A stretch of DNA of 64,000 bases from a virus. The notes under the pieces are model-generated. The model saw nothing but the letters and a program-made list of their open reading frames with translations, made no database searches and was not told the DNA's origin. Both the position numbers and the translations under genes were made by a program. How positions within the stretch are numbered: position 1 is the first letter of the stretch; each line of letters starts with the position of its first letter. The DNA is taken from positions 55,076 through 119,075 of the IMG/VR virus record IMGVR_UViG_3300030380_006811; one strand, given 5' to 3'. This document shows, piece by piece, positions 3,624 through 32,687 of the stretch.

Positions 3624-3941
3624 ATGACTACTAAAAGAAAATCTATCCAAACTATAAAGGATCCATTATTAGAACCTTATTTCATTACTAAAGATGAATA
3701 TAGCTATACAGTTAAAGAAACGGTTACCTCAAATGTTGATCACTTTAGATCTAATGGTAAAAGTAAAACTTATGAAAAATCTTTATACTACTTCCCTCAG
3801 TTTGATCAGGCTGTAAATAAAATTGCAGAATTAAAAAATACAAAAAAGGATTTTAATAGTCTTAATGAATATATTGAAAATTACAAATTAATAAGAAACC
3901 AAATTAAAAATTATACAAATGGAATTAGAAGCACTGTTTGA
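3624..3941 (+). CDS. Unrecognised protein upstream of groES
   Basis: 105 residues, mostly helical and charged, with YSYTVKETV and SKTYEKSLYYF segments and a Lys/Asn-rich C-terminal half. I recognise no family. It is the first gene after the phage-type promoter at 3566 and its 3' end overlaps groES by 23 bases, so it is co-transcribed with the chaperonin genes; a link to folding is only suggested by position. Confidence 0.6.
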   Translation: MTTKRKSIQTIKDPLLEPYFITKDEYSYTVKETVTSNVDHFRSNGKSKTYEKSLYYFPQFDQAVNKIAELKNTKKDFNSLNEYIENYKLIRNQIKNYTNGIRSTV

Positions 3942-4287
3942 TGCAGTTATAGTTAAACCTCAAGAAATAGAAGAAACCACTTATGGATCTATTATTGTTC
4001 CTGATATTGGGAAGGATAGAAATGAGCACGGTACAGTAATAGCTGTTGGTCCAGGAAGACCAACCCAAATGGGGGGATTTATAGAAACCACAGTTAAACC
4101 TGGGGATAAAGTAATATTACCTACTGTTGGTTTTACAAAACTTCAACATGAAGGAGACGAATATTATATAGGCCCAGAAAACCAAATTTTAGCCAAAGTA
4201 AAACAAAAAATACAAGTTTCGGAATTATTGGAAGAAACTAAAGAAACATTAACTGAAGAAGAAATTAAAGATTTATCAAATGAGTAA
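3919..4287 (+). CDS. groES: GroES co-chaperonin
   Basis: 122 residues against about 97 for a typical bacterial GroES. The core fits: FDAVIVKPQEIEE at the start, a mobile loop around TTYGSIIVPD (residues 21-30), the HGTVIAVGPGR strand with roof region, and VKPGDKVILP. The extra length is a C-terminal acidic tail of about 25 residues (ETKETLTEEEIKD). GroES caps the GroEL ring to make the folding chamber. Its stop region overlaps the groEL start by 8 bases. T4 supplies only a gp31 co-chaperonin for the host GroEL; here the phage encodes both partners. Confidence 0.88.
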   Translation: MELEALFDAVIVKPQEIEETTYGSIIVPDIGKDRNEHGTVIAVGPGRPTQMGGFIETTVKPGDKVILPTVGFTKLQHEGDEYYIGPENQILAKVKQKIQVSELLEETKETLTEEEIKDLSNE

Positions 4288-5902
4288 ACAAGTTGTTTTA
4301 GGTTCTGAAGCAAGAACCAATTTAGTAAAAGGAATTGATATATTAGCAGATGCGGTAGTATCAACATTAGGCCCAAATGGTAGAAATGCAGTTATAGCAA
4401 ACGATCAGGGTGCTCCACAATCTACTAAAGATGGAGTTACAGTTGCAAAATCAATTTCATTAAAGGATCCTAACCAAGAATTAGGAGTTCAATTAGTAAA
4501 ACAAGCTGCAATTAAAACAGCTGAAAAAGCAGGTGATGGTACTACAACATCTACTTTATTAGCTAGAGAAATGATTAAAGCAGGATTAACAGCTTTAAAT
4601 AATAATGAAAATGCAGTTCAAATTAAAAGAGATATAGATGCTACTGTTAAAGAGGTAGTCAATAATCTAAAAAATAATATTGCGGAAGATATTTCAGGTG
4701 AGGAACAATTAGAACAAATCGCTACAATATCAGCAAATAATGATCCTGAAACTGGAAAATTAATTGCTACTGCAATAGAAAAAGTTGGAATGGAAGGGGT
4801 TGTCCACATAGAAGAATCTCGTACAGGTGAAACCTACTTAGAAACTGTTGAAGGGTTACAGTTTGATCGAGGTTATAAATCACCTTATTTTGTTACAAAT
4901 AACAATACTATGACTGCCACACTGGACAATCCCTTAATTCTAATAGCAGATCAAAAAATAACCCAAGTAAAAGAACTATTGCCTATTTTAGAGAGTGTAT
5001 CTTCACAAGCAAAATCTTTATTAATTATTGCTGAAGATATTGATAATGAAGCACTAGCAACTCTTATTGTTAATAAAATGAGAGGTACAATGAAAGTATG
5101 TGCTGTTAAAGCTCCTGATTTTGGTGATAGAAGAAAATTAGTTCTAGAAGATATAGCAATTACAACTGGTGGTCAAGTCTTTAGTAAAGAAAAAGGAATG
5201 AGGTTTGATAAATTTAGTTGGGAATGGTTTGGTGAAGCTAGAACAGCAACAATAGGTAAAGAACAAACAACAATAGTAGATGGAAAAGGAACAGTTGAAT
5301 CAATTGAAACACGTATTGAAGAACTACAGCAACAAATCGACAAAGCAACAACGCCGTTCGAAGTCGAAAAACTCCAAGAAAGACTGGCAAAATTCGTCGG
5401 AGGAGTAGCTATAATTCATGTAGGAGGAAATACAGAAACTGAAATGAAAGAGAAAAAAGATAGAGTTGATGACGCATTACACGCAACAAGAGCTGCTATC
5501 GAAGAAGGAATAGTGCCCGGAGGAGGAACGGCATTATTATATGCCTCTAGTGGCATAAAAGCTAATACAACAGGTGCACAAATTGTAGTTGAAGCATGTG
5601 CTAAACCTTTTAACCAAATTTTAGTTAACGCTGGATATGATGAAGTAAAAGGACAAATTTTAGCTGATAATTTAGTTAATTCTGGTAATGATACTTGGGC
5701 AGGATTTAATATTAAAACTGAAGAAGTAGTTGATATGAAAGAAGCAGGTATTATTGATCCTACTAAAGTAGCTAGAACAGCATTACAAAATGCAGCATCA
5801 GTAGCAGGTACAGTTTTATTAACTGAATGTACAGTAGTAGATGAACCAAGTGAAGATTCAAAACAACCACAAATAGATCCATCAATGATGGGGATGATGT
5901 AA
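4280..5902 (+). CDS. groEL: GroEL chaperonin (Hsp60)
   Basis: 540 residues, close to normal GroEL length. Equatorial-domain signatures are present: LGPNGRNAVI with TKDGVTVAKSI, the ATP-site AGDGTTTSTLLA (about residues 85-96), and late in the protein DALHATRAAIEEGIVPGGGT. The C-terminus ends in a short Met/Gly tail (MMGMM), a reduced form of the usual GGM repeats. GroEL folds proteins inside a double ring with ATP; the adjacent groES makes a full system that could fold phage capsid or tail proteins. A patch at about 5320-5530 uses more G/C-ending codons than the rest, possibly recent exchange with a different sequence. Confidence 0.93.
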   Translation: MSKQVVLGSEARTNLVKGIDILADAVVSTLGPNGRNAVIANDQGAPQSTKDGVTVAKSISLKDPNQELGVQLVKQAAIKTAEKAGDGTTTSTLLAREMIKAGLTALNNNENAVQIKRDIDATVKEVVNNLKNNIAEDISGEEQLEQIATISANNDPETGKLIATAIEKVGMEGVVHIEESRTGETYLETVEGLQFDRGYKSPYFVTNNNTMTATLDNPLILIADQKITQVKELLPILESVSSQAKSLLIIAEDIDNEALATLIVNKMRGTMKVCAVKAPDFGDRRKLVLEDIAITTGGQVFSKEKGMRFDKFSWEWFGEARTATIGKEQTTIVDGKGTVESIETRIEELQQQIDKATTPFEVEKLQERLAKFVGGVAIIHVGGNTETEMKEKKDRVDDALHATRAAIEEGIVPGGGTALLYASSGIKANTTGAQIVVEACAKPFNQILVNAGYDEVKGQILADNLVNSGNDTWAGFNIKTEEVVDMKEAGIIDPTKVARTALQNAASVAGTVLLTECTVVDEPSEDSKQPQIDPSMMGMM

Positions 5903-17924: not shown

Positions 17925-18715
17925 TATCAGTAATAATACCAACGTATAGAAACCCAGAATATTTAGATATTTGTTTAAAATCAGCTATTCAATATCAAAG
18001 ATATAGTAATGAAATTATTGTAGCAGTAGATGGTTATATAGAAGAGAGTCAGTCTGTATTAGATAAGTATAAAGATAATATCAAAATATTAGATTTAGGT
18101 GAAAATCAAGGAATGCAACAAGCTCTTAATTTAGCTGTGATGAATGCTAGTAATGAAATCATTTTTGTTGTTAATGATGATAATGTATTTTGTGTTGATT
18201 ATGATTTAGCCATTGAGAAAAACATAAAAGAAAAATCAGTACTTACCTTAAATCAAATTGAACCAGAAGGTCCTGGCATTTTTAAATTTCCAGTTAAAGA
18301 TTTTGGACGTACCCCAGAAGCATTTGATTATGATGCGTTTATAGAGTATGAACAATCAATTAGAAAAGATGAGCTAACTATTGATGGTGGTATTTTTCCA
18401 TTTGCTATGTACAAGAAATATTATATGGCTGCTGGTGGATTTGATGTAATGTATAGATCTCCTTTTATTTGTGATTGGGATTTTTTCTTAAAGTTAGATT
18501 TAATGGGTCTTAGTTTTAATAGAACACATGAAGCACACTTATATCATTTTGGGAGCACAGCAACTAAAAATGGTAAAGAAGGAATAAGATTTAAAGAATC
18601 AGAACGACCAGCAGCTGAATTATTTAATTATAAATGGGGTCACCCACCATCATTATTTAAAAATAATTCACATAGTCCAAAAGGAAAAACCATAAAAGGT
18701 ATAAAGTATTGTTAA
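17921..18715 (+). CDS. Glycosyltransferase family 2
   Basis: 264 residues. MISVIIPTYRNPEYLDICLKS is a classic GT2 start, FVVNDDNVF the metal/donor site (about residues 84-92) and AAGGFDVMYRSPFICDWDFF the acceptor-side segment. Inverting GT-A fold, cytoplasmic. It is the last gene of the island: a phage-type promoter follows within 10 bases and begins a new unit. Confidence 0.85.
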   Translation: MISVIIPTYRNPEYLDICLKSAIQYQRYSNEIIVAVDGYIEESQSVLDKYKDNIKILDLGENQGMQQALNLAVMNASNEIIFVVNDDNVFCVDYDLAIEKNIKEKSVLTLNQIEPEGPGIFKFPVKDFGRTPEAFDYDAFIEYEQSIRKDELTIDGGIFPFAMYKKYYMAAGGFDVMYRSPFICDWDFFLKLDLMGLSFNRTHEAHLYHFGSTATKNGKEGIRFKESERPAAELFNYKWGHPPSLFKNNSHSPKGKTIKGIKYC

Positions 18716-20742: not shown

Positions 20743-20908
20743 ATGGTATGATGCCATGAAACTTCCTACACCTCATAGGAATAAGAAAAAATACTATAGA
20801 AAAGAAAAACATAAGAAACGTGGGAGCCAATTTGGTTCCCACAATTATTTTTCGTATATTTACAGAGTAAAATTAAGGTTATGGCTCTTTGGGAATTCAA
20901 AAATTTAA
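20714..20908 (+). CDS. Small basic protein reading through the next promoter (64 residues)
   Basis: MKKITLTQHEWYDAMKLPTP at the N-terminus resembles small proteins of marine T4-like phages. The frame then runs through a terminator-like hairpin and a promoter into the next gene, so the last 25 or so residues are made from regulatory DNA. Either a real gene has lost an earlier stop or only the first half is functional. Confidence 0.45.
   Translation: MKKITLTQHEWYDAMKLPTPHRNKKKYYRKEKHKKRGSQFGSHNYFSYIYRVKLRLWLFGNSKI
20820..20842 (+). terminator. Terminator-like hairpin overlapping a promoter
   Basis: GTGGGAGCC (20820-20828) pairs with GGTTCCCAC (20834-20842), with one G-T pair, around an AATTT loop, followed by AATTATTTTT. 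The -33 TTG of the next promoter (20832-20834) lies in the loop and first base of the 3' arm. Confidence 0.6.
20832..20863 (+). promoter_or_regulatory. Phage bipartite promoter
   Basis: TTG at 20832-20834, exactly 20 bases, TATATTTAC at 20855-20863 preceded by TTCG; start codon at 20881, just after an AAGGTT. It drives the SWIM protein and probably the DNA ligase operon. Confidence 0.7.
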
Positions 20909-23339: not shown

Positions 23340-23357
23340 TATATTTATAACAAAATA
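23340..23357 (+). promoter_or_regulatory. Late-type promoter (TATTTATAA box)
   Basis: TATATTTATAACAAAATA, with the TATTTATAA core at 23342-23350, 26 bases before the start codon at 23376. The same box lies upstream of most virion gene groups in this window; compare T4 late promoters, which have only a -10 TATAAATA. Confidence 0.6.
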
Positions 23358-23657: not shown

Positions 23658-24740
23658 ATGAGTAAATATAACTTATCAGAATTACTTACTGAAGTAGCAG
23701 GAGGTAGAATTGGAACATTAGAAATTTCGGCTAGAGATTTAGTTCGTAAAATGGAAGATCTTGAAGATAAAGGTGTTCGAGTAGAACGTTTTGATGGTCT
23801 TTCTCCTGATGGTAAAACATATATTGAATTCCATGTTCACCCAATAAGAAAATATGATGAAGATTATTCATTTTCAGTTTACGACTTTAAATTTGGATTT
23901 GATCCTATGAGCCCAGAACATTCTGATCAAGAATACCCATTTAGTGTAGGTGGTAGATCATCAGCACGTGATAGTGCAGAAACAACACTTAGAGGAGGAG
24001 ATATGGGGTTTGAGCTTAAAGAAGCTAAAGAAGAACCTAGAGATGGAGTTAAAAGTGCTGCAGCTAAACTAGGAATGAAACCAAGTCATGTAAAAGAAAA
24101 CATGTCTAAAAAAGATACATTAAAGAAAGAAATGATGATTCATGTTGACCAATTAATAGATGGTAACATAGACATGAACGACTTTATGAATGTAGTAGAA
24201 GATATAATGGATGAATTAAATCCAGGGGATGATTTCGAACAAGAAGAATTTACAGCTATCCCTGAAGAAGATTCAATGAAAGAAGATTTAGATGATTTGA
24301 ATGATGACGAATATGATGATGGTCCTGATGGTAAATTTGTTAACGAACTAGATAATACTTTAAATGTTGATAAAGTTGCCTCACCAGATGCTAAAGCACA
24401 TGATTACGGAGCTGAAATTAAAGGTATATCTGATGAAGATGATACTGAAGAAAAGTATGCTCATGGGATGGTATTACCATTAGAAGAAGATTCAATTGAT
24501 GAAGCAGATAATATGGAAGTTGTTGCGTTATTAAATAATATAAGAAAGCATTTAAATGATAAATTTGATCGCAAATATAGTAAATCAGAAATCGATTTAT
24601 ACATGGATTCTTTAAAAAGAGATATTGAACGTGGTGAATTTGATGGTGTTGAATCTATTTCAATGGAAGACCATGAAGAGGATTTTGAAAATTACATTGC
24701 TGATAAATCATTACAAGAACATTTTAAAAGATTTTTATAA
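23658..24740 (+). CDS. Acidic protein of unknown function
   Basis: 360 residues. The first 100 residues form a beta-containing domain (RIGTLEISARDLVRKMEDL, YIEFHVHPIRKYDEDYSF). The remainder is highly acidic with long Asp/Glu runs (DDLNDDEYDDGPDG) interrupted by short helices such as KKDTLKKEMMIHVDQLIDG. It follows the TSP3-type membrane protein by 3 bases behind a late-type promoter, so it may be a scaffold or internal virion protein; I do not recognise a family. The structured RNA candidate begins right after its stop. Confidence 0.55.
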   Translation: MSKYNLSELLTEVAGGRIGTLEISARDLVRKMEDLEDKGVRVERFDGLSPDGKTYIEFHVHPIRKYDEDYSFSVYDFKFGFDPMSPEHSDQEYPFSVGGRSSARDSAETTLRGGDMGFELKEAKEEPRDGVKSAAAKLGMKPSHVKENMSKKDTLKKEMMIHVDQLIDGNIDMNDFMNVVEDIMDELNPGDDFEQEEFTAIPEEDSMKEDLDDLNDDEYDDGPDGKFVNELDNTLNVDKVASPDAKAHDYGAEIKGISDEDDTEEKYAHGMVLPLEEDSIDEADNMEVVALLNNIRKHLNDKFDRKYSKSEIDLYMDSLKRDIERGEFDGVESISMEDHEEDFENYIADKSLQEHFKRFL

Positions 24741-24753
24741 TAAAATCTATTTT

Positions 24754-25013
24754 GCCCGCTTTTCCGGGCCTGTAAAGTGGGCGTTATGCGGAGATTATTG
24801 CACGCCCTTGAAAAATGCTAGATTAAAACTCTTCACCCATATTTATGGTTGATTTGTTTTTTTCAAACATTTTTCAAAAGGTTACTTGCTGTCAGTTAGG
24901 CTGAGTCCGTGTTTAATTGGCATGGGACCTTGAGTAACCCCAGTGTTGACAGCGCTTAGGACGCCTACAAATACAGGCCCTCAAATACAGAAAGGAACCT
25001 CACGGTTCCTTTT
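24754..25013 (+). ncRNA. Candidate structured non-coding RNA
   Basis: The 336 bases between two genes hold a GC-richer block quite unlike the AT-rich surroundings. Helices seen: GCCCG/CGGGC (24754-24758 with 24765-24769); GGGCG/CGCCC (24779-24783 with 24803-24807) extended by TGC/GCA; GGTTACT/AGTAACC (24880-24886 with 24933-24939); CTGTCA/TGACAG (24889-24894 with 24947-24952); TAGGC/GCCTA plus GTCC/GGAC (24897-24901 and 24905-24908 with 24959-24967). The last three interlock, as in a pseudoknot. A direct repeat AAATACAG (24969, 24983) and a terminator follow. No plausible start codon with a long frame is seen. Family unknown; the strand is inferred from the terminator. Confidence 0.6.
24991..25013 (+). 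terminator. Rho-independent terminator at the end of the RNA candidate
   Basis: AAAGGAACC (24991-24999) and GGTTCCTTT (25004-25012) pair perfectly over nine base pairs around a TCAC loop, and the stem runs into TTTTCT. Confidence 0.75.
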
Positions 25014-25076
25014 CTGATTCTAAAATTTGTATTTTTATTAGTTGTATATATTTATTATTGTATTTACCCAAATCTT

Positions 25077-25421
25077 ATGAAAATAGATATAATTGGTTTT
25101 AGATTACCAACGGCTACCCCTGATCCTACAAGACATCCTTCTTGTGGTTGGGTTGCTATCTGTAATGATAAAGAAATTGGTTGGTGTAATATGACCTTCT
25201 TACCTAATAATGTATTAAAACTTGAAGATGCATTTATACATCCAGACTATAGAGGTAAAGGAATATATAAACAATTATGGAATAAACGTTATGATTATAT
25301 TCAGGAGCACTTTAGTAATTACAAATTAATAGCTTACTGTAAACCAACTACACTAGAATTTTATAAAAAACAGGGGTTTATTGTAAAAGAAACTATAACT
25401 CTTGTTGAGAAGCCCGCGTAA
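25077..25421 (+). CDS. GNAT-family N-acetyltransferase
   Basis: 114 residues. FIHPDYRGKGIYKQLWNKRY (around residues 56-75) is the acetyl-CoA loop (R/Q-x-x-G-x-G/A), and LIAYCKPTTLEFYKKQGFIV is the C-terminal helix-strand pair. The enzyme moves an acetyl group from acetyl-CoA to an amine; the substrate is not evident. The protein is short at its N-terminus for this family but the core is complete. A weak TATTTATTA box lies upstream at 25049-25057. Confidence 0.75.
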   Translation: MKIDIIGFRLPTATPDPTRHPSCGWVAICNDKEIGWCNMTFLPNNVLKLEDAFIHPDYRGKGIYKQLWNKRYDYIQEHFSNYKLIAYCKPTTLEFYKKQGFIVKETITLVEKPA

Positions 25422-32429: not shown

Positions 32430-32687
32430 AAAAATGGTGGTGTTACGTGAACTAAAAACGAGGGGGTATTAACCCCTGTGCATCGCAAGCCAACCTATTT
32501 CGACTCGACGAGTATATATTTGTGAACAATGCAATGTTCATAGGTGATCATAACGTTTCACTTGAGGATACGTCAATAAAACATTAGATACGTTGTGAAT
32601 ACAACAATAATAATAAAATAATGACGTAAACATTTGGATACCAGGGTAATGGTTCGTATATTTAGGTGTTAATTGTTAATAAAGGTT
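32430..32687. other. Non-coding stretch before the 94-residue gene
   Basis: No convincing gene. It contains GGGG-TATTAA-CCCC (32464-32477), an inverted repeat TGAACA/TGTTCA (32523-32528 with 32535-32540) and more CpG than its surroundings, then the promoter at 32634 and an AAAGGTTATG start context. Together with the repeats before it, 340 bases are gene-free. Confidence 0.6.
32634..32665 (+). promoter_or_regulatory. Phage bipartite promoter
   Basis: TTG at 32634-32636, exactly 20 bases, TATATTTAG at 32657-32665 preceded by TTCG. The gene start at 32688 lies 22 bases further. Confidence 0.72.

Follow-up and report, generated by a model that had tools for sequence, protein, structure and literature searches.

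A candidate structured non-coding RNA between a 360-aa protein gene and a GNAT acetyltransferase gene of a T4-like marine phage

The 64-kb stretch of DNA analysed here (the window) is a portion of a 119-kb virus record, and its matches to DNA polymerase, clamp loader, baseplate wedge and DNA ligase identify the source, a marine phage, as T4-like. The phage also encodes a GroEL chaperonin (window positions 4280-5902; phrog_5725, E 9e-154). Its promoters of the type TTTGGTTACC, 11 bases, TCGTATATTTAC presumably point to a Bacteroidota-like host group. Seven strong promoters of this early type (TTTGGnTACC, 11 bases, TCGTATATTTAC) are located at 18710, 20819, 25413, 26288, 32621, 36406 and 36772, some of them apparently overlapping hairpins (e.g. 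those at 20819 and 36772). The locus of interest is a non-coding stretch of 260 bases (24754-25013) containing a candidate structured RNA on the plus strand, with an approximate transcript of 24750-25016 or about 265 nt. On its upstream side lies a plus-strand gene (23658-24740) encoding an acidic protein of 360 aa without a PHROG match, with homologs in the related records L048, L156 and L161, and with its stop codon abutting the RNA region. The downstream gene (25077-25421, plus strand) encodes a GNAT acetyltransferase (phrog_3810, E 6.7e-7), relatives of which are found in L031, L048 and L156.

The region differs in composition from its surroundings, as the first-pass annotation had reported, with a G+C content of 43.8% versus 30.4% for the whole window, and of 59%, 24% and 51% for its sub-parts 24754-24807, 24808-24877 and 24880-24980, respectively. 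It also folds better than shuffled sequence, as structured RNAs do in general: the minimum free energy of −94.7 kcal/mol (z −5.9) was matched by none of 200 shuffles. Among 455 tiled segments of 280 nt, with the tiling phase set on the RNA region itself, it was the top outlier at z −6.9 (runner-up −4.2), and it ranked only fifth when segments of 240 nt were used, which cut through the closing stem P1 described below. The minus strand folds nearly as strongly (z −5.8), and hence the strand is not fixed by fold energy alone.

The predicted fold is dominated by two helices which bring both ends of the RNA together, with pair probabilities mostly of 0.96-1.0. These closing stems, which were missed in the helix list of the first-pass annotation, are P1 (24766-24774 with 24972-24980, 9 bp, pair probability 0.90-1.0) and P2 (24777-24785 with 24960-24968, 9 bp including G-U pairing, pair probability 0.72-0.99). 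Inside the closed loop are a long A+T-rich hairpin H1 (24808-24877), helix A (24880-24886 with 24933-24939, 7 bp) and helix B (24888-24894 with 24947-24953, 7 bp), with a further hairpin (24905-24928, from the pair-probability fold) inserted between the A and B strands. Each closing stem has a short local competitor: a 5′ hairpin GCCCG/CGGGC (24754-24770, from sequence reading and constrained folds) competes with P1 and a hairpin GGGCGT/ACGCCC (24779-24807, from constrained folds) competes with P2, so that the RNA may pass through another fold while being transcribed.

Helix B crosses helix A in an arrangement which fits an H-type pseudoknot, with a first loop of 1 nt and a last loop of 7 nt (24940-24946). 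When the region was shuffled 1000 times with its dinucleotide composition preserved, two perfect 7-bp helices in a compact H-type layout like that of A and B appeared once, and closure by P1 together with a P2 core of at least 5 bp twice, although the significance of both counts is somewhat overstated, as these tests were framed after the structure had been seen; the z-score from the tiling is less affected by such hindsight. Constrained folding gave −86.9 with the B strands left open, before helix B and the penalty for a pseudoknot are counted, versus −94.7 for the nested optimum, which in this rough estimate places the A/B pseudoknot about level with the nested alternative. A single A/B pseudoknot is thus predicted as plausible. 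The first-pass annotation had proposed three interlocking helices, and all three can indeed be formed, but the third, helix C (24897-24901 with 24963-24967, 5 bp), takes bases of the P2 3′ strand and is mutually exclusive with that stronger stem. An open state allowing A, B and C together reached only −68.4 versus −86.9 for the closed state, in both cases before adding B or C, and on these energies we rejected the triple interlock as the dominant state.

The region is flanked by possible transcription signals on both sides. A late-promoter-like motif ATTTTTATAATAAAAT (consensus ATATTTATAAYAAAAT) at 24731-24746 on the plus strand has one mismatch within the 9-base core and scored 11.9 in a model derived from 55 sites in relatives, ranking tenth among all 64,000 plus-strand positions and outscoring all 64,000 on the minus strand (best score 9.35). 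Its first half overlaps the conserved codons HFKRFL-stop of the 360-aa gene, and its second half follows the stop codon, where relatives read GCAGG...CACA instead, which suggests that this half arrived with or after the RNA. We consider it a supported, putative late promoter for the RNA. No early promoter was found near the RNA on its upstream side, the closest upstream being the one at 20819. A further late-promoter-like motif (TATATATTTATTATTG, 25044-25059, plus strand) precedes the GNAT gene and, in an alignment by eye, is conserved in L048 and L156. The ATATTTATAAYAAAAT motif recurs before genes at 23341, 34919, 35997, 41565, 44744 and 58333, and resembles the T4 late element TATAAATA as read on the opposite strand. 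At the 3′ side is a terminator-like hairpin (24988-25017, plus strand), previously described as a textbook terminator. The perfect 9-bp stem (24991-24999 with 25004-25012) is real, but the hairpin is nearly symmetric, the plus-strand T-run (TTTTCTG) is short and mostly taken up by the stem, and only the minus strand was flagged in a scan for terminators.

From the comparison with related records it is clear that the RNA is absent from the corresponding position. In L156, the closest syntenic relative (83% identity in GNAT), both flanking genes are present, and the approximately 87 bases between them contain a terminator and the late motif of the GNAT gene, and no RNA; in L048 a reading frame on the minus strand occupies the gap; in L161, where the GNAT gene is missing from that spot, the homolog of the 360-aa gene is followed by a terminator plus an early promoter; and in L031 and L033 the GNAT gene is preceded by a different gene. 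As the flanking genes occur in relatives without the RNA between them, we read the RNA as an accessory insertion. The only other copy, on contig 3300020404_002553 (L047), is identical, as is the gene upstream of it (100%), and this contig is probably the same virus. Since the RNA is absent from the related genomes searched, helix retention in those genomes neither supports nor contradicts the predicted structure.

No diverged homolog was detected in Rfam, INPHARED, PLSDB, IMG/VR, GTDB or the related records. The first-pass annotation had found no known family and proposed a covariance-model search of Rfam; this gave no match to any Rfam 15 family at gathering scores, and nothing meaningful at E≤10, where the best sub-threshold hits were snoRNA, miRNA and sRNA models far below gathering. 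Its view that the layout is not that of a tRNA, tmRNA or HDV-like ribozyme also held up, as a dedicated search found no tRNA-like fold or tag frame, and no family model for self-cleaving ribozymes, group I or group II introns, RNase P or 6S RNA matched on either strand. BLASTN against INPHARED phages and PLSDB plasmids returned chance or terminator matches only, and exact-pattern scans of IMG/VR (two core motifs) and GTDB (one core motif) gave only chance 17-19-mers by inspection of their flanks, besides the sequence itself in IMG/VR. Within 47 related records, a DNA search recovered only the RNA itself and the identical contig. A covariance model (R1), of limited reach as it was built on a single sequence, added one match at E 0.04 and 10 bits in about 90 related records, which was judged to be chance. 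A descriptor search for closing stems like P1 and P2 in 1.4 Mb of loci returned the RNA itself and matches judged unrelated, namely repeat-like stretches and chance matches in high-G+C loci. A structured non-coding RNA without an Rfam counterpart at 24754-25013 is well supported by these data.

We infer that this candidate RNA is expressed and functional, and the best explanation, to which we assign an even chance, is that the T4-like marine phage carries it as an accessory gene for a structured RNA, transcribed late and ending at the hairpin at 24988-25017. The 360-aa and GNAT genes would be the neighbours between which this gene was gained, and its late transcription would start at the motif at 24731, at the late promoter at 23341 with read-through into the RNA, or at both, and run up to the hairpin. 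The RNA would close on itself via P1 and P2, with the A+T-rich arm H1 and the compact A/B pseudoknot domain inside. The most likely mechanism, which by itself we consider possible but rather doubtful, would be action in trans as a decoy or scaffold to which a host or phage protein binds. Protein binding would nevertheless be more likely than base-pairing, as most bases are structured and no long unpaired seed is evident. As possible roles, the first-pass annotation had named regulation, packaging and decoy of a host RNA.

The main rival is that there is no separate RNA gene, and that the region is a structured 3′ untranslated region of the late mRNA of the 360-aa gene, with the closed stems and terminator hairpin shielding the message from 3′ exonucleases or tuning termination. 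The RNA region does lie directly 3′ of the stop codon and ahead of the terminator of the operon, and a strong late motif at 23341 precedes this two-gene operon. Conversely, the orthologs of the 360-aa gene in L156 and L161 manage with a short 3′ end and a simple terminator, and hence need no such element, and neither the separate late motif at 24731 nor a complexity beyond that of a simple stabilising stem would be expected of it. We consider this 3′ element unlikely. Less probable still is a DNA element, either a short inverted-repeat mobile element whose terminal inverted repeats would be the P1/P2 arms, or a site for replication or packaging, of which the RNA fold would be a by-product. While the two arms form an imperfect inverted repeat of approximately 27 bases (by eye), both strands fold and the region is an insertion relative to L156, neither the window nor the record contains a second copy, no copies were found in INPHARED phages or PLSDB plasmids, and the crossing helices A and B would have no role in duplex DNA. 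Comparison of the junctions with L156 by eye also showed no target-site duplication, and with neither this nor multiple copies seen, a mobile inverted-repeat element is not supported.

Returning to the RNA gene, we compared the candidate with known systems. The packaging RNA of phi29 is likewise a small phage RNA with paired ends, similar to the P1/P2 closure, but the candidate is in a T4-like phage, a group in which DNA packaging is not known to involve an RNA, and it has no Rfam match. GOLLD and ROOL RNAs resemble it in being phage-encoded and structured with pseudoknots, as predicted for the candidate, and GOLLD levels rise during lysis (PMC12286853); however, the candidate has about 265 nt versus >800 nt in many GOLLD members, its window is without tRNAs, and again there is no Rfam match. 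The abiF antitoxin RNA (RF03085) is a structured, phage-borne and protein-binding RNA (PMC12373285), and shares with the candidate that it is a structured RNA on a phage, but there is no RF03085 match and the adjoining genes were not identified as Abi-type toxins. The RNAs of DRT2, which is pseudoknotted (PMC12039810), of DRT9, which carries a U-rich template (PMC12483538), and of retrons offer a pseudoknot or stem-loop scaffold of comparable size (approximately 280 nt for DRT2), whereas the candidate has no identified template and no sequence match. That it is a very diverged member of such a known class with too narrow a model, e.g. a retron msr-msd RNA or an RNA that partners a defence reverse transcriptase, is quite improbable: the likeness is in the general layout only (end-closing stem, internal hairpin and pseudoknot), there is no Rfam match or recognised conserved motif, and no reverse transcriptase (PF00078) was found in the 119-kb record, which may be incomplete. 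Least credible of all is a chance G+C-rich intergenic stretch without function, as the fold and helix arrangement are far outside shuffled sequence, although no homolog was found that could show conservation.

A bolder form of the RNA gene reading, which we consider distinctly unlikely, is a new class of non-coding phage RNA with a single member to date, made late, with closed ends and a pseudoknot core, which would mimic or titrate an RNA-protein complex of the host, such as that of a defence system. Non-coding RNAs of phages of marine bacteria have rarely been mapped, and a structured RNA inserted between a pair of conserved genes, at a site left empty in the nearest relative, may be an accessory gene which encodes an RNA rather than a protein; accessory sites of this kind often house anti-defence or host-takeover functions. 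The structured RNA at 24754-25013 is a well-founded candidate in this respect.

Other candidate non-coding elements were also noted. A non-coding stretch with hairpins (GGGGGTATTAACCCC ... TGAACAATGCAATGTTCA, window positions 32460-32545) upstream of an early-type promoter is conserved in L037, L038 and, by eye, L043; it is a candidate RNA or DNA element, and may suit covariation analysis better than the RNA at 24754-25013. Finally, short non-coding units of approximately 190 and 90 bases in L034 (about 3750-3950), L010 and L012 are candidate small RNAs, each bounded by a phage promoter and a terminator-like hairpin and located upstream of a RecA/DnaB-like gene.
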